Shown: positions 1 through 19,974 of the stretch, one piece after another
Position numbering within the stretch: the first letter of the stretch is position 1
Layout: the number at the start of each line of letters is the position of its first letter
Assembly (NCBI RefSeq): GCF_001420995.1
Contig: NZ_CP012184.1
Coordinates: forward strand, 5,874,501-5,938,500
Direction of reading: 5' to 3'
DNA length: 64,000 nucleotides
From: Pseudonocardia sp. EC080619-01
GTDB taxonomy: Bacteria > Actinomycetota > Actinomycetes > Mycobacteriales > Pseudonocardiaceae
Notes under the pieces: generated by a model
The model's input: only the letters and a program-made list of their open reading frames with translations
Database searches by the model: none
Told to the model about the DNA's origin: nothing
Made by a program: the position numbers and the translations under genes

Positions 1-374
1 CTGGCGAGCACGACGGCGTCCACCCGGGGCAGTGCCCGCTCGACGAGCGCCCGTTCCTGCGGGCCCGACTCGTGGGAGTCGGCGACCGCGATGGCGAGTC
101 CGGCATCGAATGCGGCGTCCTCGGCACCGTGCACGAGCTCGAACACGAACGGGTTGCTGATGTCGGAGGTGACCAGGAGCAACACACCGGTCGGCGCGGA
201 GTCCATCGGGGCGTTGACGGCGAGGCGGCGATAGCCCAGTTCCTCGGCGGACCTGCGCACCTTCTCCGCGGTGCGGGTACTGACCTGGCCCGGCCGGGCG
301 AGTGCCCGCGACACCGTCGAGGGCGCCACGCCCGCGGCGGCGGCGACGTCGTAGATCGTGGGCCGCGTCCCCAA
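1..374 (-). CDS. LacI-family transcriptional regulator (3' end outside the window)
   Basis: The visible N-terminus reads MGTRPTIYDVAAAAGVAPST followed by VSRALARPG, the classic LacI helix-turn-helix and hinge-proximal helix, and then the start of a periplasmic-binding-like effector domain (TGVLLLVTSDISNPF). The chosen start is TTG at 374, with a GGAGGAGAAGG ribosome-binding site about 7 nt upstream. LacI regulators bind operator half-sites as dimers and are released by sugars. The neighbours are sugar oxidoreductases, isomerases and a transporter, so it is probably the local regulator of that locus (inference). The effector pocket lies outside the window, so the ligand cannot be guessed. Confidence 0.9.
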   Translation of the reverse strand, partial: MGTRPTIYDVAAAAGVAPSTVSRALARPGQVSTRTAEKVRRSAEELGYRRLAVNAPMDSAPTGVLLLVTSDISNPFVFELVHGAEDAAFDAGLAIAVADSHESGPQERALVERALPRVDAVVLA

Positions 375-490
375 GCCTTCTCCTCCGGCTGGTCGGTGCG
401 CTGGGGCCGGATCGCCGTCGCTGCGCGGAGCGGGTGGGTCGCCGGGAAGCTATCAGAGCCCGGGACCGCGCGACCCGGGCCGACCCGGGG

Positions 491-1675
491 TCACCGGGCG
501 GGCTCGGCGCCTCCGGCGCGCTCGGGGAACGAGCCCTCGGCCGCGATCCGCTTGTTCAGCTCTGCGAGGTAGAGGTCCTCGTCGAAGTCGAGGGGGACCT
601 CCCGGCCCAGCCAGCTCGACAGGTGGATCGCGTTGGCCAGCCGGACGCCGTCGATCCCGTCGCTGCCCGCCGCGAGCAGCGGTGTCCCGTCGAGGATGGT
701 GGCGGCGAAGTTCGCGAGGACGCCGGTGTGCTGCGCACCCCAGACCGAATCGAACTCGAGGACCTCGCGCGAGTAGTACGTGCTGCGGTCCAGCTTGCCG
801 GTGAAGAGCTTGCGGACGTCCTCGGCCGACATCGACTCCGACAGCTCGCGCTCGTCGGCGACCAGGCGCGTGACGGTCGCCGTCCTCGACCCGTCGACGA
901 CGATGCGGCCCCGGTCGCCGAGGATCTCCAGCCGGTCGGTGCCCTCGATGTCGTGCACGGCGGTGACGAAGGTGCCGGTGACGCCGTCGCCGTAGTCGGC
1001 GACGGCGGTGACCTCGTCCTCGACGGCGATGTCGCGGCGGAAGCCGTAGGCGACCTTGGCGTAGACCGAGCGCGGGACCCCGCAGATCCACTGCCACAGG
1101 TCGAGCTGGTGGGGGGCCTGGTTGACCAGGACACCGCCGCCCTCGCCGCCCCAGGTGGCGCGCCATGCGGACTGGTCGTAGTAGCCCTGCGGGCGCCACC
1201 AGGTGGTGATCATCCAGTTCGTCCGGCGGATCGCGCCGATCTCGCCGGCGTCGACGATCTCCTTGATCCGCTGGTAGAGCGGGTTGTTGCGCTGGTTGAA
1301 CATGATCGCGAACGTCAGCTCGGGGTGCCGGGCGGCGCACGCGTTGAGCTCGGCGACCTGCCCGGTGTAGACACCGGCCGGCTTCTCCACCAGCACGTGC
1401 AGGCCCGCCTCGAGGGCCGCGATGCCGATCTCGGGGTGCAGGTAGTGCGGCACCGTGGTGACCACGGCGTCCACCTCACCGCCGGCGAGCAGCGCCCGGT
1501 AGTCCTCGTGGACCGGTACCCCGTACTCGCTGGAGGCCGTCGCGCGCCTGTCCGGGTCGGTGTCCGCGACCGCGCCGATCTCCATCCCGGGGACCCTGCC
1601 GTCCCGGATGAAGGAGGCGTACATCGATCCCTGCGCCCCGAATCCGATGATTCCGAGCCGGACCTCTCCGGACAT
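491..1675 (-). CDS. Gfo/Idh/MocA-family NAD(P)-dependent oxidoreductase
   Basis: A 394-residue protein with an N-terminal Rossmann fold (GFGAQG at residues 11-16) and the family EKP motif at 97-99, followed by the alpha/beta dimerisation domain. The family oxidises or reduces hydroxyl groups of sugars, inositols and glycosides in the cytoplasm. The ATG at 1675 is preceded by GGGAGGTC at a normal distance; longer in-frame starts would run into the divergent promoter. It faces away from a sugar isomerase and a second family member, as in clusters that open glycosides by transient keto-sugar formation. The substrate is not deducible. Family confidence is high and pathway assignment is inference. 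Confidence 0.9.
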   Translation of the reverse strand: MSGEVRLGIIGFGAQGSMYASFIRDGRVPGMEIGAVADTDPDRRATASSEYGVPVHEDYRALLAGGEVDAVVTTVPHYLHPEIGIAALEAGLHVLVEKPAGVYTGQVAELNACAARHPELTFAIMFNQRNNPLYQRIKEIVDAGEIGAIRRTNWMITTWWRPQGYYDQSAWRATWGGEGGGVLVNQAPHQLDLWQWICGVPRSVYAKVAYGFRRDIAVEDEVTAVADYGDGVTGTFVTAVHDIEGTDRLEILGDRGRIVVDGSRTATVTRLVADERELSESMSAEDVRKLFTGKLDRSTYYSREVLEFDSVWGAQHTGVLANFAATILDGTPLLAAGSDGIDGVRLANAIHLSSWLGREVPLDFDEDLYLAELNKRIAAEGSFPERAGGAEPAR

Positions 1676-1750
1676 GCGTGGACCTCCCTCGTGCACGGCT
1701 TCGTGACGGCGACCACGGTGGGGGAGCGCGGGGTGGACGGCCACGGGTTG

Positions 1751-1807
1751 CCACATGTTCCGTCGCACCGTAGCCAGGCACCGATGCAACAAGTGGGAAC
1801 AAGTGGG
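1751..1807. promoter_or_regulatory. Divergent promoter region with tandem and inverted repeats (candidate operator)
   Basis: The 201-bp gap between the divergent oxidoreductase and isomerase genes holds two perfect, adjacent copies of AACAAGTGGG (1788-1797 and 1798-1807). An inverted copy, CCACATGTTCC, lies at 1751-1761 and matches the complement of 1796-1806 at 10 of 11 bases. A 10-bp period places the copies on one helical face. This is a good candidate for the binding site of the LacI-type regulator at 1-374 or of another regulator, although it lacks the usual LacI central CG palindrome. Confidence 0.45.
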
Positions 1808-1876
1808 CGGTGCCACCGGGCAGCGGTCACGGTGATCGTGCGACCGAACAGCGCTCAGTGAGGAGCAACCGGAAAC

Positions 1877-2704
1877 ATGTGGACACTCTCGGGCTTCGCC
1901 GACGAGATCTCCTCCGACCTCGACGAACAGGTGGCGCTACTCGGCAAGCTCGGCATGTCCCACCTGGAGTTCCGCAGCGCTTGGGGTACGAACGTGCTCG
2001 ACCTGGACGCCGGCGCGCTGTCCCGGGCGAAGGGGATCGTCGACGACGCCGGACTCGCCGTGTCGAGCATCGGCTCCCCGATCGGCAAGATCCACGTCGA
2101 GGAGGACTTCACCGCGCACCTCGACCGGGCCCGGCACGCCCTCGACGTCGCCCATCACTTCGGCGCCCCCTACGTCAGGGTCTTCTCCTTCTTCGTCAGC
2201 CCTGGTGACGACCCGGACCGCCACCGCGACGAGGTGCTGCGCCGGATGCGGGCCCTGGCCGATCTGGCCGAGCAGCGCGAGGTGATCCTCGTGCACGAGA
2301 ACGAGAAGGAGATCTACGGCGACGTCCCGCGCCGCTGCGCCGACATCCTCGCCTCCGTCGCGTCGCCGAACCTGCGCGCCGCGTGGGACGCCGCCAACTT
2401 CGTCCAGGTGGGCGTGCGGCCCTTCACCGAGGCCTACGCCGCCGTCCGCCCCTACCTGGAGTACGTCCAGATCAAGGACGCGCTGCTGGCCGACGGCGAG
2501 GTCCGCCCCGCCGGTCGCGGCGACGGCGAGATGGTCGAGACCCTGCGCGCGCTCCGCTCGGACGGCTTCGACGGCTTCTTCTCCCTGGAACCGCACCTGT
2601 CGCAGGCCCACAGCCTCGGCGGATTCTCCGGACCCGAGCTGTTCATCGAGGCCTGGGAGGCGTTCACCGGGCTGCTCGGCGCCGAGGGCATCGAGTACCG
2701 GTGA
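1877..2704 (+). CDS. Sugar phosphate isomerase/epimerase (xylose isomerase-like TIM barrel)
   Basis: A 275-residue AP endonuclease 2/xylose isomerase-like TIM barrel. It begins MWTLSGFADEISSDLDEQ, and later shows the acidic and histidine residues that hold a divalent metal in this fold (LVHENEKEIYGD, AAWDAANFVQVG, VQIKDALLADG, FSLEPH). A GAGGAGC ribosome-binding site precedes the ATG. The family isomerises or epimerises keto-sugars and cyclitols. The stop overlaps the GTG of the next oxidoreductase by 4 bp, so the two are translationally coupled. Such isomerase plus Gfo/Idh/MocA pairs are common in keto-sugar and inositol-like catabolism; the exact substrate is unknown. Confidence 0.88.
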   Translation: MWTLSGFADEISSDLDEQVALLGKLGMSHLEFRSAWGTNVLDLDAGALSRAKGIVDDAGLAVSSIGSPIGKIHVEEDFTAHLDRARHALDVAHHFGAPYVRVFSFFVSPGDDPDRHRDEVLRRMRALADLAEQREVILVHENEKEIYGDVPRRCADILASVASPNLRAAWDAANFVQVGVRPFTEAYAAVRPYLEYVQIKDALLADGEVRPAGRGDGEMVETLRALRSDGFDGFFSLEPHLSQAHSLGGFSGPELFIEAWEAFTGLLGAEGIEYR

Positions 2705-3723
2705 ACGCGGTGACCACGGCGGCCGTCATCGGCTGCGGCGACGTCGCGCCGGTGCACCTCGACGCCATCGCCCGGGAGGCGGGCATCGAGCTGGTGGCGG
2801 TCTGCGACACCGATCCCGTCGCCCGCGCGGCGACCGCCGAGCGCCACGGCGTCCCGGGCCACGCCGACCACCGCACGCTGCTCGCCCGCGCTCGCCCGGA
2901 CGTGGTGCACGTCTGTACACCGCACGACCAGCACGTCCCGGTCGCCCTCGACGCACTCGACGCCGGGGTGCACGTACTCCTCGAGAAGCCGCTCGCGCAC
3001 ACCGTCGACGAGGCCGAGCGTCTCGTCGCGGCCGCCGGGCGCGGTCGTGCCCGGGTGGGGGTGTGCTTCCAGAACCGCTACAACGCCACCGCGCAGGCCG
3101 CGCACGAGATGCTGCGCTCCGGGGAGCTGGGCGCGGTGCTCGGCACCGTCGCGACGGTCATGTGGACCCGCACCCCGGACTACTACCGTGCCAAGCCGTG
3201 GCGCGGGCGGTGGGCCACCGCGGGCGGCGGGCTGCTCATCAACCAGGCGATCCACACCATCGACCTGGTGCAGTGGCTCGCCGGGGACGTCGTCGAGGTG
3301 TCCGGCAGCGCCTCGACCCGGCTCTACGGCGACCTCATCGAGGTCGAGGACACCGCCGAGATGCTGCTCTCGCACGACGGCGGGGCCCGCAGCGTCGTCG
3401 TCGGCTCCCTCGCGAACGTCGTCCACGCACCGGTCACCATCGACGTCACCGCCGAGCGGGGCAGCCTGTCGATCCGCGGCGACCTCACCGTGACCCGGGC
3501 CGACGGCACGGTGCACACCGTGCCGGAACGACGGGCCGCGCTGAACGGACGCTCCTACTGGGGGGTGTCCCACGAGCACCTGATCCGGGACTTCTACGCC
3601 CGGCTGGGCGACGACGAGCCGTTCTGGATCGGCCCCCGCGAGGCGATGAAATCGCTGCGCATCCTCACCGACGTCTACGCCCGGAGCGGCATCGGCCGGA
3701 TCCGGCACACCGCCACCGGCTGA
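2701..3723 (+). CDS. Second Gfo/Idh/MocA-family oxidoreductase
   Basis: A 340-residue protein with a GCGDVAP Rossmann loop near residue 11, EKP at 95-97, and a C-terminal dimerisation domain containing the GGGLLINQAIHTIDL segment. The GTG start at 2701 is favoured because it overlaps the preceding stop as GTGA and keeps the whole nucleotide-binding strand. It probably acts on the same sugar route as the divergent oxidoreductase, perhaps doing the opposite redox step, as in clusters that oxidise a sugar carbon before cleavage and reduce it again afterwards (inference). Confidence 0.9.
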   Translation: MNAVTTAAVIGCGDVAPVHLDAIAREAGIELVAVCDTDPVARAATAERHGVPGHADHRTLLARARPDVVHVCTPHDQHVPVALDALDAGVHVLLEKPLAHTVDEAERLVAAAGRGRARVGVCFQNRYNATAQAAHEMLRSGELGAVLGTVATVMWTRTPDYYRAKPWRGRWATAGGGLLINQAIHTIDLVQWLAGDVVEVSGSASTRLYGDLIEVEDTAEMLLSHDGGARSVVVGSLANVVHAPVTIDVTAERGSLSIRGDLTVTRADGTVHTVPERRAALNGRSYWGVSHEHLIRDFYARLGDDEPFWIGPREAMKSLRILTDVYARSGIGRIRHTATG

Positions 3724-3782
3724 CGACCGGCCCGGCCGCGCCCACCCGCACCCCACCCGACCTCCGTGCTGAAGGGGAACCC

Positions 3783-4634
3783 ATGCCCACGATCGGCGTC
3801 CAGATGATGATGCTCAAGAACCACGTCGAGGACGTCGGGCCCCACGAGGTCCTGCGCCGGCTCTCGGAGTCCGGCTTCTCCGCGGTCGAGGTCTCCCAGA
3901 TCGCGATGACCCCGGAGAACGTGGCCGAGATGGTCCGCGCCCGTGACGAGCTCGGCATCGACTTCGGGGCGCTGTCCGCCGGCATGGGCGGCGGCCCGAA
4001 CGAGTCCCTCCTGGACGACTTCGACAAGATCGTCGCGGACACGAAGGCCCTGGGCGCCTCGCGGCTGCGCATCGGCATGATGCCGTACCCGGCGATGGCC
4101 TCGCACGAGGCGCTGCTGGAGTTCTGCGGCCGGGCCGAGAAGGTGTCCGCGCGGCTCGCCGACGAGGGGATCACCCTCTACTACCACAACCACCACGTCG
4201 AGTTCGCCAGGCGCGGAGGCAGCACGCTGCTCGACGTCATCCGCGCCGAGGCGCCGACGATGCGGCTCGAGATCGACGTGCACTGGGTGCAGCGCGGTGG
4301 CCGCGACCCGGTCCGCACGCTGCAGCAGTACGCCGGCCTGGTGGACCTGGTCCACCTCAAGGACTACCGCATCGGCGAGCTGGACCCGTCGGCGTTCGAC
4401 GCCCTGGCCGACGGCGACCGGGCCGGGTTCATGCGCTCCTTCACCGACGTGGTGCAGTTCGCCGAGGTCGGCGAGGGCAACCTCGACTGGGCCGAGATCA
4501 TCGACCAGTCGCTGGACTCGGGTGCCGAGTACCTGTTCATCGAGCAGGACCAGCAGTACGGCCGCGACCCCTACGATTGCCTCCGGACCTCCCGCGAGAA
4601 CCTCGTCGCGCTGGGCTACGGGCACCTGATCTGA
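3783..4634 (+). CDS. Second sugar phosphate isomerase/epimerase (TIM barrel)
   Basis: A 283-residue xylose isomerase-like TIM barrel beginning MPTIGVQMMMLKNHVEDVGP. Putative metal ligands lie in YYHNHHVEF, LEIDVHWV, LVHLKDYR and FIEQDQ. The ATG is preceded by GAAGGGGAAC. It lies 59 bp after the oxidoreductase stop and continues that operon. It is only distantly similar to the isomerase at 1877, so the locus has two non-redundant keto-sugar converting enzymes. An alternative role in this fold is 3-keto-glycoside lyase or epimerase activity, which the sequence alone cannot settle. Confidence 0.88.
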   Translation: MPTIGVQMMMLKNHVEDVGPHEVLRRLSESGFSAVEVSQIAMTPENVAEMVRARDELGIDFGALSAGMGGGPNESLLDDFDKIVADTKALGASRLRIGMMPYPAMASHEALLEFCGRAEKVSARLADEGITLYYHNHHVEFARRGGSTLLDVIRAEAPTMRLEIDVHWVQRGGRDPVRTLQQYAGLVDLVHLKDYRIGELDPSAFDALADGDRAGFMRSFTDVVQFAEVGEGNLDWAEIIDQSLDSGAEYLFIEQDQQYGRDPYDCLRTSRENLVALGYGHLI

Positions 4635-4663
4635 CCGGTGCGGCCGCCCGCGGCGGGGACCTG

Positions 4664-4682
4664 GACCCTCCCGTCGGAGGTC
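4664..4682 (+). terminator. Weak hairpin after the isomerase operon (possible terminator)
   Basis: GACCCTCC and GGAGGTC can pair around a CGTC loop with one bulged base, 30 bp after the isomerase stop and before the sulfatase-maturing gene. No T-tract follows, which is usual for actinomycete hairpins. It may attenuate rather than end transcription. Confidence 0.25.
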
Positions 4683-4740
4683 TCGCGCCCACGGACCGCT
4701 GCCGGTGGTGTGTGCGGACGCCGTGCACAATGAGGCGATC

Positions 4741-5664
4741 ATGAGCGGTGGTTGCTGCGTTCCCGGCCCGCGGGACACCTCCGTGGCGCCCGCGCCGCCG
4801 GGGGGCTCCGGTGCGCGCGACGTCCCCGAGACCGCGGTCGAGGTCCCGGGTGGGTCGTTCCTGATGGGCACCGACTCCGCCGAGGGCTACGGCACCGACG
4901 GCGAGGGGCCCGCCCGGCGGGTCGAGGTCGGCCCGTACCTGATCGACACGGTGGCCGTGACCAACGCCCGGTTCGCCGAGTTCGTCGCCGCCACCTCCTA
5001 CGTGACGGAGACCGAGCGGATCGGCTGGTCGTTCGTGTTCGTGGGGTTCCTGCCCGCGGCACTGCGCCGGACCAGCCCGCGCCCGCAGCAGACCCCCTGG
5101 TGGGCCGGGGTGACGGGCGCGACCTGGTCTGCGCCGGAGGGCCCCGGCAGCACCGTCGGCGACCGGGCCGACCACCCGGTCGTCCACCTGTCGCACGCCG
5201 ACGCCCGCGCCTACGCCGCGTGGGTCGGCGGGCGGCTGCCCAGCGAGGCGGAGTGGGAGTACGCCGCGCGTGGCGGCCTGGAGGGCGCGCGCTACCCGTG
5301 GGGCGACGAGCTCACCCCGGCGGGCGAGCACCGGTGCAACATCTGGCAGGGCGACTTCCCGGTCCGCAACACCGCCGAGGACGGCTACCGGGCCACTGCG
5401 CCCGTGACGGCGTTCGCCCCGAACGGCTACGGCCTCCACAACACGGCCGGGAACGTCTGGGAATGGTGCGCCGACCACTTCGGGCCGCGCAGCGGGGACG
5501 CGCGGGTGATGCGCGGTGGCTCGTACCTGTGCCACGAGTCCTACTGCAACCGCTACCGGGTCGCCGCCCGCACCGCGAACACCCCGGACAGCGCCGCCGG
5601 TCACCTCGGGCTGCGGGTCGCCTGGGACGTCGCGTGCCCTGCGGAGGGGGCTCCGGGCAGCTGA
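4741..5664 (+). CDS. Formylglycine-generating enzyme (sulfatase-modifying factor)
   Basis: A 307-residue FGE-sulfatase domain protein. It starts MSGGCCVPGP, continues with PGGSFLMGTD, a central PSEAEWEYAARGG, then NTAGNVWEW and MRGGSYLCHESYC. Cys264 and Cys269 match the copper-binding pair (CHxSYC) of bacterial FGEs, which use oxygen to turn the sulfatase active-site cysteine into formylglycine in the cytoplasm. The length is normal. The ATG at 4741 has a GAGGCG upstream; a longer GTG start is possible. Its partner is very probably the CGPSR sulfatase at 11020. Its place inside the cluster suggests co-expression with that one substrate enzyme. Confidence 0.95.
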   Translation: MSGGCCVPGPRDTSVAPAPPGGSGARDVPETAVEVPGGSFLMGTDSAEGYGTDGEGPARRVEVGPYLIDTVAVTNARFAEFVAATSYVTETERIGWSFVFVGFLPAALRRTSPRPQQTPWWAGVTGATWSAPEGPGSTVGDRADHPVVHLSHADARAYAAWVGGRLPSEAEWEYAARGGLEGARYPWGDELTPAGEHRCNIWQGDFPVRNTAEDGYRATAPVTAFAPNGYGLHNTAGNVWEWCADHFGPRSGDARVMRGGSYLCHESYCNRYRVAARTANTPDSAAGHLGLRVAWDVACPAEGAPGS

Positions 5665-5883
5665 CCGCTGCAGCTCCGGCGCCGGGCGACCGAGCCTGCC
5701 GGCCACGGTGGACGCCGTGGCGGGCCGTCCCGTGCGGACCGGCGGCGCGGCCCTGCAACTGCTGGCAACCCGTTGAAGCGCCGTTCGATCCCGTGCCGTA
5801 ATCCCCCCACGCGCCCCGACGCGCGGTCCGCACGAACCCGAGAGGGCATCCGGACCCTCAGTACCCACACGAGGTTGTTGACG

Positions 5884-7404
5884 ATGAGGTCAGGCCGAAG
5901 AGTTCTTCCCATCCTGGTCACGGTGGTGGGCATGCTGGCGGCAGCCGGGTGTGCCGGAATCGGGACCCCGGCCTCGCCGGCCGGTGTCCTGAACATCGGC
6001 CAGGTCCAGGACGTCGCGACCTGGGACACCGGGCAGGGCCACAACGGGCACCGCCTGGTCGCGTTCCAGACCGCCTACGACACCCTGATCCGGCGCGAGC
6101 CGGACGGGACGCTCGTGCCGATGCTCGCCACCGCGTGGGGCTACACCGACGACACGCAGACGACACTCGCGCTGACCATCCGCGAGGGCGTCACCTTCAG
6201 CGACGGCGAGGCGCTCGACGCCGAGGCGGTGCGGGCGAGCCTGGAGCACTTCCGGACCGCCAACGGACCGCAGGCCGTCCAGACGGCCGACGTCGCCGAG
6301 GTGCGCGTCACCGGGCCGTACCGGGTCGAGATCGAGCTCGCGCAGCCGAACCCGGCGCTCGAGTTCTACCTCAGCCAGGCCGCGGGCATGATCGCGAGCC
6401 CCGCCGCGCTCGGGGACCCCGCCCTCGACCGCACCCCGGTCGGGTCCGGCCCCTACGTCATGGACGAGGCCCGCTCGGTGACCGGTGACCGGTACGTGTT
6501 CCGCGCCCGGGACGGCTACTGGGACCCCTCGCTGCAGCAGTGGGACGAGGTCGTGCTCAAGGTGCTCGCCGAGCCGACGGCGCGGATCAACGCGCTCGTC
6601 GCCGGGCAGGTCGACGGGACGCAGCTGCTGCCCCGCAACACCACCCAGGCCGAGAACGCCGGCCGCGAGATCGTGAACCGGGACGTCAACTGGGCCGGGC
6701 TGATGCTGTTCGACCGCGACGGCGCGGTCGCCCCGGAGCTGGCCGACGTCCGCGTGCGTCAGGCGATCAACCTCGCCTTCGACCGGCAGGTCGCCGTCGA
6801 CGGTCTGCTCGGCGGGTACGGCACCCCGACCAGCCACGTCTTCGGTGAGGCCAGCACGGCCTTCGACCCCGCGCTCGACGACTACTACGGCTACGACCCG
6901 CAGCGTGCGCGCGAGCTGCTGGCCGAGGCCGGCCACCCCGACGGCTTCACCCTGAGCATGCCGTTCAGCGCCAACACCAACGACGCCATCCCGTTCGTCG
7001 TACAGCCGCTCGCCGACATCGGCATCACCGTGCGCGCCGCGAGCGTGCCCGGCCAGGCGGCGCAGTCGGAGATCGGCAGCGCGCGCTGGCCCGCCGCCTA
7101 CTTCCCGATCTTCCAGGGGCCGACGTGGATGGCGGTGGAGCAGATGCTGGTGCCGCAGACGCTGTACAACCCGTTCCGCTCCGAGGACCCCCGCCTCGAC
7201 GGGATCCTCGACCGTCTGCGCGTGGCCGGGCCCGACGCCGTCGACGAGGCGCGGGAGATGGCCCGCTACGTCACCGAGCAGGCCTGGTTCGCCCCGTGGG
7301 CCCGGATGGGCAACACCTACGCGTTCGACGGCGGGAAGGTCCGCGTCGAACCGCAGATCGGCCAGGTCGTCCCCTCCATCTACAACTTCCACCCGGCCGG
7401 CTGA
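5884..7404 (+). CDS. ABC importer substrate-binding lipoprotein (SBP_bac_5 family)
   Basis: A 506-residue extracytoplasmic solute-binding protein. The signal peptide (RRVLPILVTVVGMLAAAGC) ends in a lipobox with the lipidated cysteine at residue 23. The mature part has SBP_bac_5 hallmarks: LREGVTFSDG-like text (LTIREGVTFSDGEALDAEAV) and a later LADVRVRQAINLAFDR. ATG 5884 has GAGG at 9 bp; TTG codons just upstream are alternatives. The family carries oligopeptides, but in sugar clusters it also carries oligosaccharides. Given the sulfatase and sugar enzymes here, a sulfated or amino-sugar oligosaccharide ligand is plausible (inference). Confidence 0.93.
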   Translation: MRSGRRVLPILVTVVGMLAAAGCAGIGTPASPAGVLNIGQVQDVATWDTGQGHNGHRLVAFQTAYDTLIRREPDGTLVPMLATAWGYTDDTQTTLALTIREGVTFSDGEALDAEAVRASLEHFRTANGPQAVQTADVAEVRVTGPYRVEIELAQPNPALEFYLSQAAGMIASPAALGDPALDRTPVGSGPYVMDEARSVTGDRYVFRARDGYWDPSLQQWDEVVLKVLAEPTARINALVAGQVDGTQLLPRNTTQAENAGREIVNRDVNWAGLMLFDRDGAVAPELADVRVRQAINLAFDRQVAVDGLLGGYGTPTSHVFGEASTAFDPALDDYYGYDPQRARELLAEAGHPDGFTLSMPFSANTNDAIPFVVQPLADIGITVRAASVPGQAAQSEIGSARWPAAYFPIFQGPTWMAVEQMLVPQTLYNPFRSEDPRLDGILDRLRVAGPDAVDEAREMARYVTEQAWFAPWARMGNTYAFDGGKVRVEPQIGQVVPSIYNFHPAG

Positions 7405-7434
7405 CCGCCGCCCCGTCGCACCCCGGAGGTCACC

Positions 7435-8376
7435 GTGCTGCCCTTCCTGCTCCGCAGGCTGGCGTCGGGCGTGGTCGTGCTCGCCGCCGTCCTCTGCCTG
7501 ACGTTCCTGCTGCTGTTCTTCTCCACCGACGACGTCGCCGCGAACATCCTCGGCGAGCAGGCGACACCTGACCAGATCGTCGCCAAGAACGCCGAGCTCG
7601 GCCTCGACCGACCGCTCCTCGAACGTCTCGTGGACTGGTGGGCGGCCGCCCTGACCGGTGACTTCGGCGCCTCCTGGTTCAACGGCCAGACGGTCGTCGC
7701 CGCGCTCGCGACCCGGCTCCCGGTCACCCTGACCCTGGTCCTGCTCTCCATCGTCCTGATCGGGGTCATCGCGACCGCCCTGGGCATGACCGCGGCCGTG
7801 CGCCGGGGCCGCGCCGACCGCGCCGTGCAGATCGGCGCCGCGATCGGTGACGCCCTGCCCAGCTTCCTCATCGGCCTGCTGCTCGTCGGCCTGTTCGTGG
7901 TGACGCTGCCCTGGTTCCCGGCGGTGAGCACGATCGCGCCCGGCGCCGGCATCGGACCGTGGGTGGTGTCGCTGACCCTGCCGATGACCGCCCTGCTCAT
8001 CAACGGCGTGGCCGCGTCGGCCCAGCAGGTGCGCGGTGCGGTGCTCACCCAGCTGTCCCGCGACCACGTCCGCACGTTGCGCAGCCGCGGGCTGCCCGAG
8101 CGGGAGATCCTCGTCCGGCACGTGCTGCGCAGCGCCGCCCCGGCCGGCCTGACCGTCCTGAGCCTGCAGTTCATCGGCATGCTCAGCGCCGTCGTCGTGA
8201 TGGAGCAGGTGTTCGCGCTGCCCGGGGTCGGGACGCTCGCCGTGCAGGCCACCACGACGGGGGACCTGCCACTGGTCATGGGGGTCGTCGCCTACACGAC
8301 GGTGATCGTCGTCGTGGTCAACCTGCTCGTCGACCTGGCCAACGGCTGGCTCAACCCGAAGGTGCGTGTCGCATGA
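7435..8376 (+). CDS. ABC importer permease, DppB/OppB type
   Basis: A 313-residue membrane protein starting MLPFLLRRLASGVVVLAAV, with the first membrane helix, a conserved ELGLDRPLLERLVDWW segment and a large loop before the remaining helices. The binding-protein-dependent transport EAA-like loop is at TLRSRGLPEREILVRHVLR. GTG 7435 follows GGAGGT. It forms the membrane channel together with the permease half of the next protein. The stop overlaps the next start by 4 bp (ATGA). Confidence 0.93.
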   Translation: MLPFLLRRLASGVVVLAAVLCLTFLLLFFSTDDVAANILGEQATPDQIVAKNAELGLDRPLLERLVDWWAAALTGDFGASWFNGQTVVAALATRLPVTLTLVLLSIVLIGVIATALGMTAAVRRGRADRAVQIGAAIGDALPSFLIGLLLVGLFVVTLPWFPAVSTIAPGAGIGPWVVSLTLPMTALLINGVAASAQQVRGAVLTQLSRDHVRTLRSRGLPEREILVRHVLRSAAPAGLTVLSLQFIGMLSAVVVMEQVFALPGVGTLAVQATTTGDLPLVMGVVAYTTVIVVVVNLLVDLANGWLNPKVRVA

Positions 8377-10202
8377 CCGAGCCCTCCACCCCGCCCGTCA
8401 CCCCCGCCGCACCGGGCCCGGCACCCCGCGGACGAGGGGGCGAGGTGCTCCGGCGGCTGCTCCGCAACCCGCTCGGCGCGGCGGCCGCGACCGTCCTCGG
8501 GCTGATCGTCGCCGGCGTGCTGCTGGCGGACGTACTGGCCCCCTTCGAGCCCGGCTACGCCGACATCCGCAACATCCTCTCGGGCGCGGGTGCCGACCAT
8601 CCGCTGGGCACCGACAGCGGGGGCCGCGACATCCTCAGCCGGCTGCTGCACGGCGGGCAGACGACGTTGCTCGCGGCGCTGCTGTGCGCGGCCGTCGCGA
8701 TCGCCGTCGGCGTACCGTCGGGGCTGCTCGCCGGGTACTACGCCGGTGGGATCGACGGGGCGGGCACCTGGGTCACGAACATCATCCTGGCGCTGCCGTC
8801 GATGATCGTGCTGCTGGCGGTGCGCGCCGCACTGGGCCCGTCGGTGTGGATCTCGATGATCGTCTTCGGGATCATGCTGGCGCCCGGGTTCTTCCGCCTG
8901 GCCCGCACCGCGGTACGCGCGGTGCGCGACGAGCTCTACATCGACGCGGCCCGGGTGTCGGGGCTGTCGGACGCCCGCATCCTGCGCCGCCACGTGCTCT
9001 CGGTCGTCCGGGCGCCCCTGATCATCCAGGGCGCACTGGTCTGCGGGATCGCCATCGCCGTCCAGTCCGGACTGGAGTTCCTCGGCCTCGGCGACGCCGC
9101 CGTACCCACCTGGGGCGTGATGCTCAACGAGGGGTTCCGCAGCGTCTACGACGGCCCGATGACCCTGCTCTGGCCCGTCCTGGCGATCGCGGTCACGACG
9201 AGCGCCCTGGTGCTCCTCGGCAACGCGGTGCGCGACGCGGTGGAGGACCCGGCCCGTGCGGGCTCCGCCGGTGCCGGCGGAGCCGTCCGGCAGGCGGTCG
9301 AGCGTCGCCGCGCCGCGTCGGCTGGTACCGCCCGGGACGGTGGCGGTCACCTTCTCGAGGTGCGTGACCTGGGCATCGCCTACCCGCAGGCGGACGGGAC
9401 CCTGAAGCAGGTGGTGGACGGGGTGTCGTTCACGCTCGACCGCGGCGAGGTCCTCGGCGTGGTCGGCGAGTCGGGATCGGGCAAGTCGCAGACCGCGTTC
9501 TCGGTGCTCGGGCTGCTGCCCGGAGATGCGCTGATCACCGGCGGGACCATCCGGATCGACGACGAGCTCACCGTCGGACCGGGGGACGTGGCCGTCGACC
9601 AGGACCGGCTGCGCCCCCTGCGCGGGCGGCGCATCGGGTACATCCCGCAGGAACCGATGAGCAACCTCGACCCCGCCTTCACCATCGGGTACCAGCTCGT
9701 GCGCCCGATGACGCACCTGCTCGGCGTCTCCCGGGCCGAGGCCACCGCCCGGGCCGAGGAGCTGCTGCGCAGCGTCGGGATCGCCGACCCGGTCCGGGTC
9801 ATGCGGTCCCATCCGCACGAGGTGTCCGGCGGCATGGCCCAGCGGGTGCTGATCGCCGGTGCGATCTCCTGCGAACCGGACCTCGTGATCGCCGACGAGC
9901 CCACCACGGCACTGGACGTGACCGTGCAGGCCGAGGTCCTCGACGTCCTTCGGGACCTGCAGGAGCGGCTCGGCCTGGCGGTCCTCCTGGTCACCCACAA
10001 CTTCGGCGTCGTCGCCGATCTCTGCGACCGCGTCCTGGTCATGCGCGACGGCACCGTGGTCGAGTCGGGCGACGTCCGACGGATACTGCGCGACCCCGAC
10101 CACGAGTACACGGCGTCGCTGCTCGACGCGATGCTCGCCGACAAGCCGCCGCGCGGCCGCCTGACCGCGGCGGCGGACGAGAACCTGGAGGCGACCCGAT
10201 GA
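8373..10202 (+). CDS. Fused ABC importer permease (DppC type) and ATPase (DppD type)
   Basis: A 609-residue fusion. Residues 1-295 are a DppC-like permease (GTDSGGRDILSRLLHGG, EAA loop ELYIDAARVSG near 187-197). After a short Arg/Ala-rich linker, residues 327-609 form an ABC ATPase: Walker A GESGSGKS at 365-372, Q-loop Q426, signature VSGGMAQR from 484, and Walker B LVIADEP at 504-510. These two parts are separate subunits in classic Dpp/Opp systems. The joined form fixes one permease to one ATPase. ATG 8373 overlaps the previous stop, and its own stop overlaps the next start. Confidence 0.94.
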   Translation: MTEPSTPPVTPAAPGPAPRGRGGEVLRRLLRNPLGAAAATVLGLIVAGVLLADVLAPFEPGYADIRNILSGAGADHPLGTDSGGRDILSRLLHGGQTTLLAALLCAAVAIAVGVPSGLLAGYYAGGIDGAGTWVTNIILALPSMIVLLAVRAALGPSVWISMIVFGIMLAPGFFRLARTAVRAVRDELYIDAARVSGLSDARILRRHVLSVVRAPLIIQGALVCGIAIAVQSGLEFLGLGDAAVPTWGVMLNEGFRSVYDGPMTLLWPVLAIAVTTSALVLLGNAVRDAVEDPARAGSAGAGGAVRQAVERRRAASAGTARDGGGHLLEVRDLGIAYPQADGTLKQVVDGVSFTLDRGEVLGVVGESGSGKSQTAFSVLGLLPGDALITGGTIRIDDELTVGPGDVAVDQDRLRPLRGRRIGYIPQEPMSNLDPAFTIGYQLVRPMTHLLGVSRAEATARAEELLRSVGIADPVRVMRSHPHEVSGGMAQRVLIAGAISCEPDLVIADEPTTALDVTVQAEVLDVLRDLQERLGLAVLLVTHNFGVVADLCDRVLVMRDGTVVESGDVRRILRDPDHEYTASLLDAMLADKPPRGRLTAAADENLEATR

Positions 10203-11023
10203 GTACCCCGCTCCTGGACGTCGAGGACCTGGTCGTCGAGTTCCGCACGAAGCGTCTCGGCCCCGCCTTCCGGGCCCTGCACGGGGTGTCGTTGCAGGTC
10301 GGCGCCGGCGAGACGCTCGGGCTGGTCGGCGAGTCCGGTTCCGGGAAGAGCACCATCGGGCGCGCCGTCCTCGGTCTCGCCCCGGTGACCTCGGGGCGGA
10401 TCCGGTTCGACGGCCGCGACATCGGGGCGGCCGACCGCCGGACCCGGCGGGCGTTGAGCCGTGACCTGCAGGTCGTGTTCCAGGACCCGTACAGCTCGCT
10501 CAACCCGGCCCGCACGGTCGGCGACACCCTCTCCGAGCCGCTGCAGGTGCAGGGGATCGAGGGAGGTGAGGCACGCAGCCGGGTCTCCGGGCTGCTCGAC
10601 CGCGTCCATCTCCCGCAGGACGCGATGCACCGGCTGCCCCGCGAGTTCTCCGGCGGTCAGCGCCAGCGCATCGCGATCGCCCGGGCGCTGGCGCTGCGTC
10701 CGAAGCTGATCGTGTGCGACGAGCCGGTCAGCGCGCTCGACCTGTCGACCCAGGCCCGGGTGCTCGACCTGTTCCTCGAGCTGCAGGAGGCGATCGGCGT
10801 CGCCTACCTGTTCGTCTCCCACGACCTCGACGTGGTTCGCCACGTCAGCCACCGGGTCGCGGTCCTGTACCGCGGCGAGATGGTCGAACAGGGCGACGCG
10901 GAGCAGGTCACCCGCGATCCCGCGCACGAGTACACGCGGACGCTGCTGCTCGCGTCCCCGGTGGCGGACCCCGACCGGCAGGCCGAGCGGCGAGCTCAGC
11001 GGCGCGCGTCGGCCGCGCGATGA
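10199..11023 (+). CDS. ABC importer ATPase, DppF/OppF type
   Basis: A 274-residue ATP-binding subunit with Walker A GESGSGKS (44-51), Q-loop VVFQDPYSSLNP, signature SGGQR (151-155), Walker B LIVCDEP and switch His in VSHDLDV. The C-terminal oligopeptide-transporter extension is short. It pairs with the ATPase half of the preceding fusion to power uptake. Both ends overlap its neighbours by 4 bp (ATGA), so it is coupled to the importer and to the sulfatase. Confidence 0.94.
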   Translation: MSTPLLDVEDLVVEFRTKRLGPAFRALHGVSLQVGAGETLGLVGESGSGKSTIGRAVLGLAPVTSGRIRFDGRDIGAADRRTRRALSRDLQVVFQDPYSSLNPARTVGDTLSEPLQVQGIEGGEARSRVSGLLDRVHLPQDAMHRLPREFSGGQRQRIAIARALALRPKLIVCDEPVSALDLSTQARVLDLFLELQEAIGVAYLFVSHDLDVVRHVSHRVAVLYRGEMVEQGDAEQVTRDPAHEYTRTLLLASPVADPDRQAERRAQRRASAAR

Positions 11024-12642
11024 CCGGGCGCCCGAACATCGTGTGGATCTCGACCCACGACATCAACCCGCACCTGGGCTGCTACGCGGGCGTGTATCCG
11101 GGGGCTGAGCAGGCGCGCACCCCGAACCTCGACGCCCTGGCGGACGGGGGGATGCGGTTCGACCGGGCGTTCGCGGCGGCCCCGATCTGCGGGCCGTCGC
11201 GGTCGGCGATCATGACGGGCTGTTTCCCGACGGCGATCGGGACGATGCACATGCGGACGAAGGCGGTGATGCCGCCCCAGGTCCGGTTCGTGACCGAGTA
11301 CCTGCGCGAGGCGGGGTACTACGCCACGAACAACTGGTTCACCGACTTCCAGACCTCGACGCCGCCGTCGGCGTTCGACGACTGCTCGCCGTCCGCGCAC
11401 TGGCGGAACCGGCCCGACGGCGTGCCGTTCTTCGCGGCGTTCCACTCGCTCGTCACCCACGAGTCCCGCCTGTACGGGGACGACGAGCAGTTCGAGGCCC
11501 GTATCCCGCACGTCGGCCCGGAGGACCGCCACCACCCGGACGACGTCGTGCTGCCGCCCTACCACCCGGACACCCCGGCGTTCCGCACGACGTGGGCGCG
11601 GTACCTGGACCTGATCACCGAGATGGACCACTGGGTGGGCGGCCTGCTCGACGAGCTCGAGTCGGACGGCCTCGCCGGTTCCACGCTGGTGGTGTTCTGG
11701 AGTGACCACGGCGCGGGGATGCCGCGCGCGAAGCGGTGGCTCCACGACTCGGGGCTGCACGAGCCGTTGATCATGCGGTGGCCGGGTCACCTGGCGCCGG
11801 GCGCGGTGCACGGCGATCCGGTGCACCTGATGGACCTGGCCCCGACGATGCTGCAGGTGTGCGGGGCCGGCGTTCCCCCGTCGATGCACGGTGTCCCGTT
11901 GCTGGGCCCGGACGGGTCGCTGGTCGACCGCCCGAACGACTACGTGTTCGCGGGCCGCGACCGGATGATGGAGATCGAGGACCACAGCCGCAGCGCCCGC
12001 GACGACCGCCACCGCTACGTCCGGCACACCCATCCCGGACGCCCCCCGATGCCGCACTCGGAGTACCCGGACGCGCTGGGCACGTGGGCCGAGCTCCGGC
12101 GGCTGGCGCGTGACGAGTCCGCTCAGCGGACACAGGGAGAGCCGCGCACCCTGCTCACTCCCGCGCAGCGGGCGCTGGTCGGGCCGGAGAAGCCCGCCGA
12201 GGAGCTCTACGACCTCGACGCGGACCCGCACGAGCTGCGCAACCTCGCCGGTCTCCCGGAGTACGAGGCGATACTCGCCCGGTTCCGCGCGGCGGTCGAC
12301 GGATGGCTCGCCCGTCACGGTGACGCCGCCGGGCAGGACGAGGACGATCTCCTCGCCGCGTGGAGGCCGGCAGGGGAGTGGGAGGTAGTGGCGGTGCCGG
12401 TACCCGGACCGGACCGGGTACCGGTGTCACCGACGCCCGGTGCGTGCGTCGTCTGGACCGACGAACCGCCTGCTCCGCAGGCCACGGGCAGGGGAGCCGG
12501 CGACGACGTCGGGCTCCCGCCGCAGGACGGGCGGCACTGGCGGATCCACTGTGCGGCGACCCCGCCGCCCACCGGCCGTCGGGTGTGGGTCAAGGCCTGC
12601 CGCCCGGGGTTCGTGGACAGCGCGGAGGTCGCGACGGGGTGA
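11020..12642 (+). CDS. Cysteine-type sulfatase (S1 family)
   Basis: A 540-residue alkaline-phosphatase-fold sulfatase. The formylglycine motif CGPSR is at 57-61 inside ICGPSRSAIMTG. Metal-site residues show in STHDINPH (Asp14) and in FWSDHGAGMP. There is no signal peptide, so it should act in the cytoplasm on imported material. It ends with an unusual proline-rich tail of about 90 residues after the usual sulfatase core. Within S1 the motif context resembles SGSH-like sulfohydrolases more than arylsulfatases, but this is a memory-based impression. It is translationally coupled to the importer ATPase, and the FGE at 4741 should mature it. Confidence 0.93.
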   Translation: MTGRPNIVWISTHDINPHLGCYAGVYPGAEQARTPNLDALADGGMRFDRAFAAAPICGPSRSAIMTGCFPTAIGTMHMRTKAVMPPQVRFVTEYLREAGYYATNNWFTDFQTSTPPSAFDDCSPSAHWRNRPDGVPFFAAFHSLVTHESRLYGDDEQFEARIPHVGPEDRHHPDDVVLPPYHPDTPAFRTTWARYLDLITEMDHWVGGLLDELESDGLAGSTLVVFWSDHGAGMPRAKRWLHDSGLHEPLIMRWPGHLAPGAVHGDPVHLMDLAPTMLQVCGAGVPPSMHGVPLLGPDGSLVDRPNDYVFAGRDRMMEIEDHSRSARDDRHRYVRHTHPGRPPMPHSEYPDALGTWAELRRLARDESAQRTQGEPRTLLTPAQRALVGPEKPAEELYDLDADPHELRNLAGLPEYEAILARFRAAVDGWLARHGDAAGQDEDDLLAAWRPAGEWEVVAVPVPGPDRVPVSPTPGACVVWTDEPPAPQATGRGAGDDVGLPPQDGRHWRIHCAATPPPTGRRVWVKACRPGFVDSAEVATG

Positions 12643-18115: not shown

Positions 18116-19627
18116 TTAGCGGTCGTCGAGGCGGCGGCCGGCGTAGCGAGCCCATGGTTCGGCGGCCTTCTCTGCGTGGAGGAAGGCGACGTGGGAGCTG
18201 TAGCCGAACGCTTCCGCGACGAGCGATGGTGGGCATTCGAGTACGAGTTCGCCGATGGCCCGGTTGCGTGCTCCTCGAAGGTTGATGCCGAGGTCGCGGA
18301 GATGGCTCATTACTGTGTTCGGATGTAGGTGCTGGCCTGCGAGAGTGCTGGGAAACAGCCACGGACTGTCTGGGCCGCCGCCGGTTCGTAAGTTGGGTCG
18401 GTCGGCGAGGTGGTCGCGTAGGAGTTGGGCGAAGGGTTCCGGAACGTCGGTCGGCCGCTGCCCGAGAATGATGCTCATGCCATTCGGGTCGTCGTTGATG
18501 TGGTTGCTGGGGAGGGCTGCGATCTTGACCAGGGGTTGTGCATAGAGTAGTAGCAGTATTCCGGCGACGCGGTAGGGGAGCGATTCGCTGCTGCCGGTCA
18601 GTAGTTCGTGGATCCAGGCCAGTCGTTGGTCCTGACTGAGCGATGGGCTCGTTCGTGGTGATCGGTGTGGCACGGTAACTCGTGTGTTGATTCGTCTGTT
18701 CTTCGCCACGACGAAGAAGGTTCGAATGTAGGATCTTGTGGTCGGGCCCGACGAGAGCCACTCATCGATGTCAGGTTGGGTGCAGGTCGCGGCGGTGCGC
18801 TGGTAAGTATCGTGGAGCCACGTCAAGAATTTGATGGTTTCTGTGATTTCTTGCTTTGCTGAATGAACTGGGCCGCGGGTGGACGTACCGGTAGACGCCT
18901 TAGCGCGGATGCGGCGAAGATGATGCCAGTTGACGAACAGCTCGACCGGTTGGCGCACGTCCTCGGGCAAACCGTCGAGTTTGGTGTCGATCCAGCGCTC
19001 GAAACGATGCAGGTGCATATCTCGGGACGGCAAGACGCCACGGTTCTCCAGGACTGCCCGGAGATGATCGGTGGTCCGGCCGGGAATTGTGTCGAGGCCC
19101 TCGTGGGAAAGTGGAATCGACCCGTCACCGAGTGCTCGCAGGAGCGCTTCGACCTTCTTGGACCGCTTCCACACGATGATTGATTCGGGCCGTTCGACTC
19201 TGCAGAGCACGTCGACGAGGGCGATGAGCTCATCAGGGCTGGGCTGCCCACCGAGAAGGTCGTGGAGGTCGTCGCGTAGGGCGCAGCGAGCGCAGTGCGT
19301 CCTGCGGTAGTGCCCGGCCTCGTCGCCGCAGCGCTGGCAGTGGAAGTCGTCGTCGATGCCGGCGCAGGGTGCGCACCTCGGTTGCCCCGAGTCAGGCGGA
19401 TCAGGCGGCGGGCCGGGAAGAAGGCGCTGTTGGCCGCAGGTGGGGCAGGTTCCGTGGGTGTGGATCGCGTCGAACCAGCAGACGAAACAGATCCGCCCCT
19501 CCGGCCATGTGGCCTGCAGTCGAGTGGTCTGCCGATGGCAGCGTGCACAGGTGTACTCGCCGGTTGCGAGTCGTTTCCGTCCGCGTTGTGCCGAGCGAGG
19601 GGACAGGCCACTCGGCTCCGGATCCAT
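18116..19627 (-). CDS. Zinc-ribbon protein with a degenerate tyrosine-recombinase domain
   Basis: A 503-residue protein. Its first 140 residues carry six CxxC pairs (CARC, CFVC, CPTC, CAPC, CQRC, CARC), enough for three zinc ribbons. The C-terminal half resembles a phage integrase catalytic domain: ILLLLYAQPL, then LHPNTVMSHLRDLGINLRGARNRA and a final FGYSSHVAFLHAE...WARYAG. The usual first catalytic Arg and the HxxR histidine are not obvious, so it may be a DNA-binding accessory rather than an active recombinase. It starts 14 bp after the XRE gene, with GAGGAC as the ribosome site. AT content is clearly higher than in neighbouring genes. Confidence 0.75.
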   Translation of the reverse strand: MDPEPSGLSPRSAQRGRKRLATGEYTCARCHRQTTRLQATWPEGRICFVCWFDAIHTHGTCPTCGQQRLLPGPPPDPPDSGQPRCAPCAGIDDDFHCQRCGDEAGHYRRTHCARCALRDDLHDLLGGQPSPDELIALVDVLCRVERPESIIVWKRSKKVEALLRALGDGSIPLSHEGLDTIPGRTTDHLRAVLENRGVLPSRDMHLHRFERWIDTKLDGLPEDVRQPVELFVNWHHLRRIRAKASTGTSTRGPVHSAKQEITETIKFLTWLHDTYQRTAATCTQPDIDEWLSSGPTTRSYIRTFFVVAKNRRINTRVTVPHRSPRTSPSLSQDQRLAWIHELLTGSSESLPYRVAGILLLLYAQPLVKIAALPSNHINDDPNGMSIILGQRPTDVPEPFAQLLRDHLADRPNLRTGGGPDSPWLFPSTLAGQHLHPNTVMSHLRDLGINLRGARNRAIGELVLECPPSLVAEAFGYSSHVAFLHAEKAAEPWARYAGRRLDDR

Positions 19628-19641
19628 CGCTGTCCTCGGTG

Positions 19642-19974
19642 TTACTCGTCGAGGATGTTCGCGCGGCGGGGGCGGAGCGTGCGGTTGAGGTCGACGACAT
19701 TGGCCGGGTTGGTCGTGCCGGTCTTGCGTGCCCGTGCGTCGGTGGCCGTCACCGTGAGTAGGTCATCGGGGCGACAATCGAAGATGTCGCAGATCGCGGC
19801 GATGAGCTGCAGAGATACTCGCTCGGGGCGCTGGTTGACCAGCCGATAGACCTGCGGACGCGACAGCGTGATGTCGCGTTCTGCGAGCAGCGGGATGAGC
19901 TCGGTCGTGTTGTGCAGACCTCGCGCGGCCATGAGCTCGGCCAGGCGCCACGTGTAGTCGACTTTGCGTCTCAT
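19642..19974 (-). CDS. XRE-type helix-turn-helix regulator
   Basis: A 110-residue protein with a Cro/CI-like helix-turn-helix from residue 17 to 70 (LHNTTELIPLLAERD, TLSRPQVYRLVNQRPERVS, IAAICDIFDCRPDDLL) and a basic tail (RTLRPRRANIL). ATG 19974 overlaps the integrase stop as ATGA. It sits between an active integrase and a zinc-ribbon partner and may regulate the module or act as a directionality factor (inference). Confidence 0.88.
   Translation of the reverse strand: MRRKVDYTWRLAELMAARGLHNTTELIPLLAERDITLSRPQVYRLVNQRPERVSLQLIAAICDIFDCRPDDLLTVTATDARARKTGTTNPANVVDLNRTLRPRRANILDE

Follow-up and report, generated by a model that had tools for sequence, protein, structure and literature searches.

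A candidate LacI-controlled glucuronide island with an S1_8-like sulfatase in Pseudonocardia sp. EC080619-01

This study concerns the first 12,642 nucleotides of a 64,000-nucleotide stretch of DNA from Pseudonocardia sp. EC080619-01 (contig NZ_CP012184.1, 6.15 Mb long, positions 5,874,501 to 5,938,500 of the forward strand), the whole of which we call the window. The genes found there encode two Gfo/Idh/MocA oxidoreductases (Gfo1 and Gfo2), two TIM-barrel proteins (TIM1 and TIM2), a formylglycine-generating enzyme (FGE), a Dpp-type importer and a sulfatase. Together the results point, with moderate confidence, to a LacI-controlled glucuronide island in which import and cytosolic desulfation would be followed by oxidative cleavage to glucuronate. 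This reading is more specific than that of the initial annotation, which had proposed the breakdown of a sulfated oligosaccharide or glycoside, and it is partly different from it.

In the proposed pathway, the family-5 (Dpp-type) importer would bring a glucuronide into the cell, where the cytosolic S1_8-like sulfatase, activated by the FGE, would remove a sulfate first, a step for this strain and not for its close relative. The sulfate is perhaps carried at O-2 of the glucuronyl residue, which is a guess by analogy with S1_8 precedent. Gfo1 would then oxidize C3 of the glucuronide, TIM2 would expel the aglycone by beta-elimination, TIM1 would hydrate the resulting 3-keto-glycal, and Gfo2 would reduce the 3-keto sugar acid to glucuronate. 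Glucuronate may pass in turn through UxaC, a mannitol-dehydrogenase-family reductase and a nickel-pincer LarA epimerase acting from mannonate to gluconate. We infer each of these enzymatic steps in this organism, and the division of labor between TIM1 and TIM2, from sequence relationships.

The oxidative core and the adjoining uronate genes

Gfo1 matched PDB entry 8tdi, 'P2B11 Glucuronide-3-dehydrogenase', with an E value of 1.7e-137 over residues 4-386 of 394, the next solved match following at 1.3e-31. The activity named in the entry is the depositors' designation, and we take P2B11 to be of gut metagenome origin. For Gfo1, every NCBIfam equivalog scored far under its cut-off. Gfo1 is predicted to be a glucuronide 3-dehydrogenase of the P2B11 type that carries out NAD-dependent oxidation at C3. 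The solved matches of Gfo2 were PDB 3q2i (E 4.6e-44), 8tdi (E 2.6e-28) and DgpA 7xr9 (E 1.8e-24).

The initial annotation had described two keto-sugar isomerases. Two TIM barrels are indeed present, but isomerase is a label at the level of the fold, and a 3-keto-glycoside eliminase is among the solved structures closest to TIM2. The best solved match of TIM2 was 8bvk (E 7.8e-15), with 8tct, 8tcs and 8tcd nearly as near, and 8bvk is identified in the available text of PMC10628242 as the entry of the 3-keto-O-glycoside beta-eliminase AtOGE. The catalytic His134 and the metal-center His189 of AtOGE are kept in TIM2 as His137 and His191 in the printed alignment, from which the 8bvk numbering was counted. 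TIM2 is predicted to be a 3-keto-glycoside beta-eliminase. In the available text of PMC10628242, an operon of Agrobacterium combines two dehydrogenases with two TIM barrels and, like two analogous operons, serves a route of oxidation, elimination, hydration and reduction. The window has this same composition. Based on these results, we consider it highly probable that the core is an oxidative glucuronide pathway.

The search for relatives of Gfo1 covered 390 family genomes (5 matches at E 1e-90, its own included), 394 genomes of the class (5 matches, its own included) and 23 genomes with sulfatase loci (3 matches at E 1e-60, 25 of 28 such loci entering this search). The stretches examined were about 20 kb long, and genes further away can escape the counts given here. 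Of the 12 Gfo1 loci, 10 had the two Gfo genes together with one or more TIM barrels, 7 had UxaC (the window being counted through L003, the stretch of its genome that covers the upstream flank and the start of the window), and 3 had a Dpp importer (the window, L066 and L076). A TIM1 homolog was in the same stretch as Gfo1 in nine of the eleven other loci, all except L078 and L079.

Locus L066, from the same-genus genome G308, has the order UxaC, LarA, LacI, LarE, LarB, LarC, reductase, LacI, Gfo1, TIM1, Gfo2, TIM2, binding protein, DppB, DppCD and DppF. Its genes showed 67-90% identity with those of the window, the first LacI being compared only with the window's other LacI (48%). No FGE was found in L066 between the end of TIM2 (12744) and the binding-protein frame (12877), nor a sulfatase between the end of DppF (18071) and a frame at 18515 that we read from its sequence as cysS-like, and neither an FGE nor such a sulfatase turned up in the G308 genome at E 1e-50. 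At L076, a beta-glucuronidase (881.9 against a cut-off of 544) and a glucuronide transporter (642.4 against 528) are found beside UxaC, Gfo1, TIM2, a Dpp importer, Gfo2 and TIM1.

Uronate genes, a nickel-pincer LarA-type epimerase and LarC lie directly upstream of the window at L003:3739-11786. The island reaches about 8.8 kb further upstream than the window, from base 3739 of L003, in which the window starts at L003:12501, and the genes treated here would be its downstream half. UxaC, the glucuronate isomerase, scored 543.5 bits against a cut-off of 387, the LarA-type epimerase adjoining the UxaC region scored 88.5 bits for Lar_N (cut-off 23.3), and LarC was above both of its cut-offs. LarB and LarE were named from their sequences, LarE having no NCBIfam family, and a mannitol-dehydrogenase-family gene (uronate-reductase-like) and two LacI-type genes are also found in this upstream part.

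LarA has a Glu-Val loop, the one checked among the three signature regions. As described in the available portion of PMC7583248, this loop occurs in LarA groups 18-20, of which groups 19 and 20 convert D-mannonate to D-gluconate; group 19 is linked there to uronic acid genes, and mannonate is doubted as its native substrate. No match to UxuA, the mannonate dehydratase that normally acts next, was obtained in the window's genome; among 14 control genomes, 5 had one. Since UxuA was not found and LarA is present, glucuronate may reach gluconate through the nickel enzyme, and the LarA-type epimerase apparently stands in for mannonate dehydratase. Upstream of the island, at L003:88-3572, are the beta and alpha subunits of a nitrile hydratase (above cut-off) and an amidase-like gene (read from sequence). 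Membership of the nitrile hydratase genes in the island was unsupported, as the G308 stretch upstream of UxaC (L080) contains no homolog.

Import, desulfation and sulfatase maturation

The Dpp-type importer of the initial annotation is present, with the correction that its second permease and first ATPase are a single fused gene; this DppC-DppD fusion recurs in 17 of 28 loci of sulfatase relatives. In trees of DppF (20 rows) and of the binding protein (19 rows), built after identity and length cut-offs, the window clustered with L066, L076 and the Arthrobacter locus L018, with support of 95/96 and 95/97, and was separate from the remaining sulfatase-locus importers in the trees. If the Arthrobacter placement holds, this importer type would have met the sulfatase at least twice. 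The substrate of the importer is predicted to be a glucuronide. At the nag/sulphatase locus of Bifidobacterium breve, import reportedly precedes desulfation.

As the initial annotation had noted, the sulfatase carries a CGPSR motif, which contains Cys57, and has no signal sequence visible by eye, its N-terminus reading MTGRPNIVWIS. Its best sequence relatives among solved structures are S1_8A-C (S1_8A, PDB 9bb9, E 4.3e-58). A structural model built from 27 sequences (pLDDT 88.9, pTM 0.92) had S1_8 enzymes as all 12 of its best fold matches, followed by a sulfamidase. By sequence and by fold ranking among solved structures, the enzyme thus appears to belong with S1_8. In an alignment of 27 sulfatases, from the window and 26 of 31 loci (L027, L035, L037, L043 and L044 left out), Cys57, Pro59, Arg61, Asp14, His77, His147, His230 and Lys238 were invariant and Asp229 was replaced by Glu in two. 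Residues 13-14 of the N-terminal motif are His-Asp, kept in 26 of the 27 sequences, where S1_8A has Glu-Asp. We assume catalytic, metal and His/Lys roles for these residues. S1_8A, S1_8B and S1_8C are presented in the available text of PMC12549532 as galactose 2-O-sulfatases of the lambda-carrageenan pathway, B and C from activity data and A from its structure.

FGE matched PF03781 with 254.7 bits over profile positions 4-255 of 255, and its best solved match was the FGE 6s07 (E 3e-107). The active-site pair Cys264/Cys269 reported in the initial annotation (CHESYC) was confirmed within the RGGSxxCxxxxC pattern, RGGSYLCHESYC. The enzyme is predicted to convert Cys57 of the sulfatase to formylglycine. 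The phrase 'its own' maturing enzyme, used in the initial annotation, is misleading. Two further Cys-type sulfatases, with the motifs CAPSR and CSPAR, are encoded elsewhere in the genome, where no second FGE was found (the other PF03781 protein is EgtB-like and lacks the Cys pair) and no radical-SAM maturase scored above cut-off. As the sole FGE found in a genome with two other Cys-type sulfatases, it probably serves all three, and we rejected the idea of an FGE dedicated to this operon.

Among 62 genomes of the genus (19 with a match), the nearest FGE was the one adjoining the sulfatase of Pseudonocardia kunmingensis DSM 45301 (73%). The nearest sulfatase in the family search came from the same genome (67%), in which sulfatase and FGE are neighbors. 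Because the nearest FGE and the nearest sulfatase are found in one genome, the pair appears to have been inherited or transferred as a unit and added to an island like that of G308. We infer that the two genes were gained here, with loss from G308 as the alternative.

Sulfatase-locus counts were made over 28 of the 31 loci, leaving out L042-L044 (Bacteroidota, Planctomycetota; best segments 32-36% identity). The relatives, which came from a single scan of named genomes, belong for the most part to Actinomycetota, a few being from Chloroflexi. Some Dpp component was found in 23 of the 28 loci, an FGE in 16, a maturase read as radical-SAM in three, a gentisate-dioxygenase-like gene in four and a beta-glucuronidase in one. 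In L032 and L033 (Chloroflexi bacterium 54-19) and L036 (Caldilineaceae), the sulfatase has near it a gene read as a radical-SAM maturase, in place of the FGE seen in many actinobacterial loci. The GH3 enzyme of the relatives, GH3a, matched SN243 (7qe1), which we take to be a beta-glucuronidase, at E 1.5e-82; a search of the window's genome for GH3a, made without a positive control, gave nothing at E 1e-10.

The locus of Arthrobacter sp. NtRootA1 (L018) has the order FGE, sulfatase, a sulfatase-like 781-residue frame, S1_8-like sulfatase, beta-glucuronidase (872.7 against a cut-off of 544) and importer. Upstream of these are a dioxygenase-like gene (best model catechol 2,3-dioxygenase at 253.1 bits, under its cut-off of 320.2), an FAA-hydrolase-family gene and an amidohydrolase. 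The whole, at L018:418-21028, seems to be a locus for aromatic compounds that carry sulfate and glucuronyl groups. At L020:11397-14442, and also in L021, L024 and L028, gentisate-dioxygenase-like (262.5 bits, under the cut-off of 442.1) and FAH-family genes are found near the sulfatase, GH3 and importer genes, and L020 additionally has a maleylpyruvate-isomerase-family gene. These putative aromatic ring-cleavage genes near the sulfatase suggest aromatic aglycones.

Operator-like sites and the weighing of alternatives

The palindrome GGCAACNNGTTGCC has two perfect places in the 7.2 Mb genome, both in the island. With at most one mismatch it has 21 places, of which 4 fall in the island, within a span of 9,071 bases: in the gap between UxaC and LarA, before LarE and an adjacent LacI gene, before the reductase, and in the gap between Gfo1 and TIM1. 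Sites with at most one mismatch are also found in the Gfo1/TIM1 gap of L067 and L068 and before Gfo1 in L077. In ten glucuronide stretches there were 16 such sites, whereas five control patterns gave 0-2, and in the 28 sulfatase loci there were 5, with 0-8 for control patterns. Three of the 16 sites are the island's own and 13 are in relatives, which makes the latter the better evidence; L065 has none at this stringency, nor do L078 and L079, which were outside the count. Within the 64 kb window, the 16-base pattern had 2 sites against 1.57 expected, which is not above chance, and the site before the binding-protein gene has three mismatches. The UxaC, LarA, reductase and Gfo1-TIM1 genes, which have an operator-like site in common, probably form one regulon, with LacI as the putative regulator.

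Several findings weigh against the island as we propose it. A sulfatase was found in none of the 11 other Gfo1 loci in the stretches fetched, the window being the only one to have one. At E 1e-15, no sulfatase locus among the 28 gave a Gfo1, matches of 25-28% occurring only in L016 and L027, and UxaC was likewise found in none of them. The Gfo/TIM genes were rejected on this ground as part of a conserved sulfatase system. In the absence of co-occurrence elsewhere, the link between Gfo1 and the sulfatase rests on the window together with the Arthrobacter locus. What most of the sulfatase loci do have is a second sulfatase (22 of 28) and a GH3 enzyme (17 of 28), not glucuronide genes, and the nearest solved relative of GH3a, 9ul7 (E 1.8e-223), is named a beta-glucosidase. 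Furthermore, the characterized S1_8 enzymes in the available text of PMC12549532 act on galactose 2-sulfate, not on uronates. TIM1 had weak solved matches only, and its single-sequence structure model (pLDDT 42.4) was set aside. The position of the Arthrobacter importer is unsure because it forms a long branch in both trees. For the operator, the motif was derived from the island, so that its own three sites are not independent and the statistics are partly circular. A reversed control pattern was commoner genome-wide (30 places against 21), so the motif is not enriched overall and its clustering alone counts.

These observations also accord with a rather unlikely alternative, that the sulfatase and FGE are passengers serving other sulfate esters, whether for scavenging sulfur or for some unrelated substrate, and that the importer and oxidative enzymes handle unsulfated glucuronides only. 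The G308 island has the other genes without these two, the FGE presumably matures the two other Cys-type sulfatases, and sulfatase and Gfo1 were together in no other locus examined. Against such a passenger role, the sulfatase start codon overlaps the stop codon of DppF (ATGA), suggesting joint translation with the importer, the FGE gene is within the run between TIM2 and the binding protein, and the sulfatase relatives have the association with Dpp components counted above and, in one locus, with a beta-glucuronidase. The initial annotation proposed that a sulfated oligosaccharide, for example a fragment of glycosaminoglycan, is taken up and degraded, and we consider this substrate improbable. 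Family-5 importers can carry oligosaccharides, S1_8 enzymes act on sugars derived from polysaccharides, and the next fold match of the sulfatase is a sulfamidase, but no glycosidase or polysaccharide lyase domain was found in the ten genes, and we rejected this as the leading idea. In addition, the core is probably that of a glucuronide pathway, Gfo1 being close to a glucuronide dehydrogenase, and the Gfo/TIM set is present in relatives without the sulfatase. A sulfated thioglycoside (glucosinolate), desulfated by the sulfatase and cleaved at the thioglucoside by the oxidative enzymes, is the least probable substrate. Related gut enzymes reportedly cleave thioglycosides in an oxidative, non-hydrolytic way (a Nature 2024 paper), and the nitrile hydratase pair upstream might fit a glucosinolate, but Gfo1 matches a glucuronide enzyme, UxaC has the same operator-like site, and the nitrile hydratase has no homolog upstream of UxaC in G308.

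Import followed by cytosolic desulfation, and the pairing of FGE with sulfatase, both put forward in the initial annotation, are consistent with the evidence, as this strain has the two genes and the otherwise matching G308 island has neither. In our judgment, the chances are slightly better than even that this importer brings in a sulfated glucuronide on which the sulfatase acts. Sulfatase and Gfo1 would then share one molecule, for which the Arthrobacter locus gives support. More tentatively, and with well under even confidence, we propose a dedicated sulfated-glucuronide pathway in which O-2 desulfation would unlock C3 oxidation without a glycosidase. The sulfatase family would then be a modular 'sulfoconjugate' system across actinobacteria and Chloroflexi, whose partner would be oxidative cleavage in this strain, beta-glucuronidase in Arthrobacter and GH3 elsewhere, sometimes beside aromatic ring-cleavage genes.

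Formylglycine sulfatases and oxidative, non-hydrolytic glycoside cleavage stand side by side here, a pairing that we did not find in the literature. No paper was found joining a formylglycine sulfatase with oxidative glucuronide cleavage, in searches where no query combined both and most subscription papers were outside coverage. If the proposal is true, it would provide a bacterial route for using sulfated glucuronides, which are doubly tagged compounds, possibly as food. It would also provide a testable substrate class for a cytosolic-looking sulfatase family, seen in 28 actinobacterial and Chloroflexi loci, for which we found no described function. Two islands that match in other respects, one with FGE and sulfatase and one without them, amount to a natural experiment.

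Gene layout and comparison with known systems

A named Pfam domain scored above its curated cut-off in all ten proteins, the smallest margin being that of TIM2 (43.7 against 31.1 bits). The initial annotation had placed all parts in one unit, and both Gfo/Idh/MocA genes that it listed are present (Table 1). The claim of a single unit fails because the minus strand carries Gfo1 and the LacI gene, which point away from a plus-strand run of nine genes (TIM1, Gfo2, TIM2, FGE, binding protein, DppB, DppC-DppD, DppF and sulfatase), several of which overlap their neighbors by a few bases. Elsewhere in the window, at 18116-21077, a minus-strand gene run with a tyrosine-recombinase-like protein (read from translations) is possibly a mobile element.

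Table 1. Positions in the window of the genes and operator-like sites discussed in the text.
Feature	Position	Strand	Remarks
LacI-type regulator, N-terminal part only	1..374	-	Gene runs past window edge, full gene L003:11876-12871; Pfam LacI 49.3 bits, Peripla_BP_3 113.3 bits (full gene)
Gfo1, predicted glucuronide 3-dehydrogenase, Gfo/Idh/MocA	491..1675	-	PDB 8tdi match
Putative LacI-type operator between divergent Gfo1 and TIM1	1738..1753		14-base core, 1 mismatch
TIM1, AP_endonuc_2 TIM barrel, predicted hydratase or eliminase	1877..2704	+	Pfam 95.1 bits; putative role
Gfo2, predicted second dehydrogenase (3-keto sugar reduction)	2701..3723	+	Pfam GFO_IDH_MocA 89.4 bits
TIM2, predicted 3-keto-glycoside beta-eliminase	3783..4634	+	Best PDB match 8bvk
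FGE, 307 aa, Cys264/Cys269	4741..5664	+	Pfam 254.7 bits; PDB 6s07
Weak operator-like site upstream of binding-protein gene	5763..5778		3 mismatches to 16-base pattern
Family-5 solute-binding lipoprotein (importer)	5884..7404	+	Pfam SBP_bac_5 211.9 bits; LAAAGC lipobox
DppB-type permease	7435..8376	+	Pfam BPD_transp_1 102.6 bits
DppC-DppD fusion, permease and ATPase, 609 aa	8373..10202	+	BPD_transp_1 residues 113-291, ABC_tran 349-512
DppF-type ATPase	10199..11023	+	Pfam ABC_tran 113.3 bits
S1_8-like sulfatase, predicted cytosolic, 540 aa, Cys57	11020..12642	+	Pfam Sulfatase 112.8 bits

The island resembles several described systems in its parts. Gfo1 aligns with the P2B11 glucuronide-3-dehydrogenase (8tdi) over nearly its whole length, as given above. 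The upstream genes are like those of the GntE-type LarA homologs in the available portion of PMC7583248, with the Glu-Val loop, neighboring LarC and uronate genes, and no UxuA found in the genome. With the S1_8 lambda-carrageenan sulfatases, as described in the available text of PMC12549532, the window enzyme shares its best sequence match, its twelve best fold matches and the catalytic Cys (CGPSR here, C-S-T-A-R in S1_8A). In contrast to them, it has about 30% identity, no visible signal sequence, a glucuronide rather than a galactan context, and His in place of the acidic residue of the N-terminal metal motif.

Similarly, the B. breve nag/sulphatase locus (Bbr_0846-0853) has a transport gene, a sulfatase and a maturase gene (atsB, Fe-S oxidoreductase) adjoining one another, yet its maturase is of the radical-SAM type instead of an FGE, it is linked to GlcNAc-6-sulfate, and the available text of PMC6045583 lists no oxidative cleavage genes for it. 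The AtOGE, puerarin and levoglucosan operons, in the available text of PMC10628242, are alike in their dehydrogenases and, in the Agrobacterium operon, two TIM-barrel 'sugar phosphate isomerases', AtOGE being the best solved match of TIM2. In comparison with these operons, the window has a glucuronide-3-dehydrogenase-like first step, attached uronate genes, and a built-in FGE and sulfatase.

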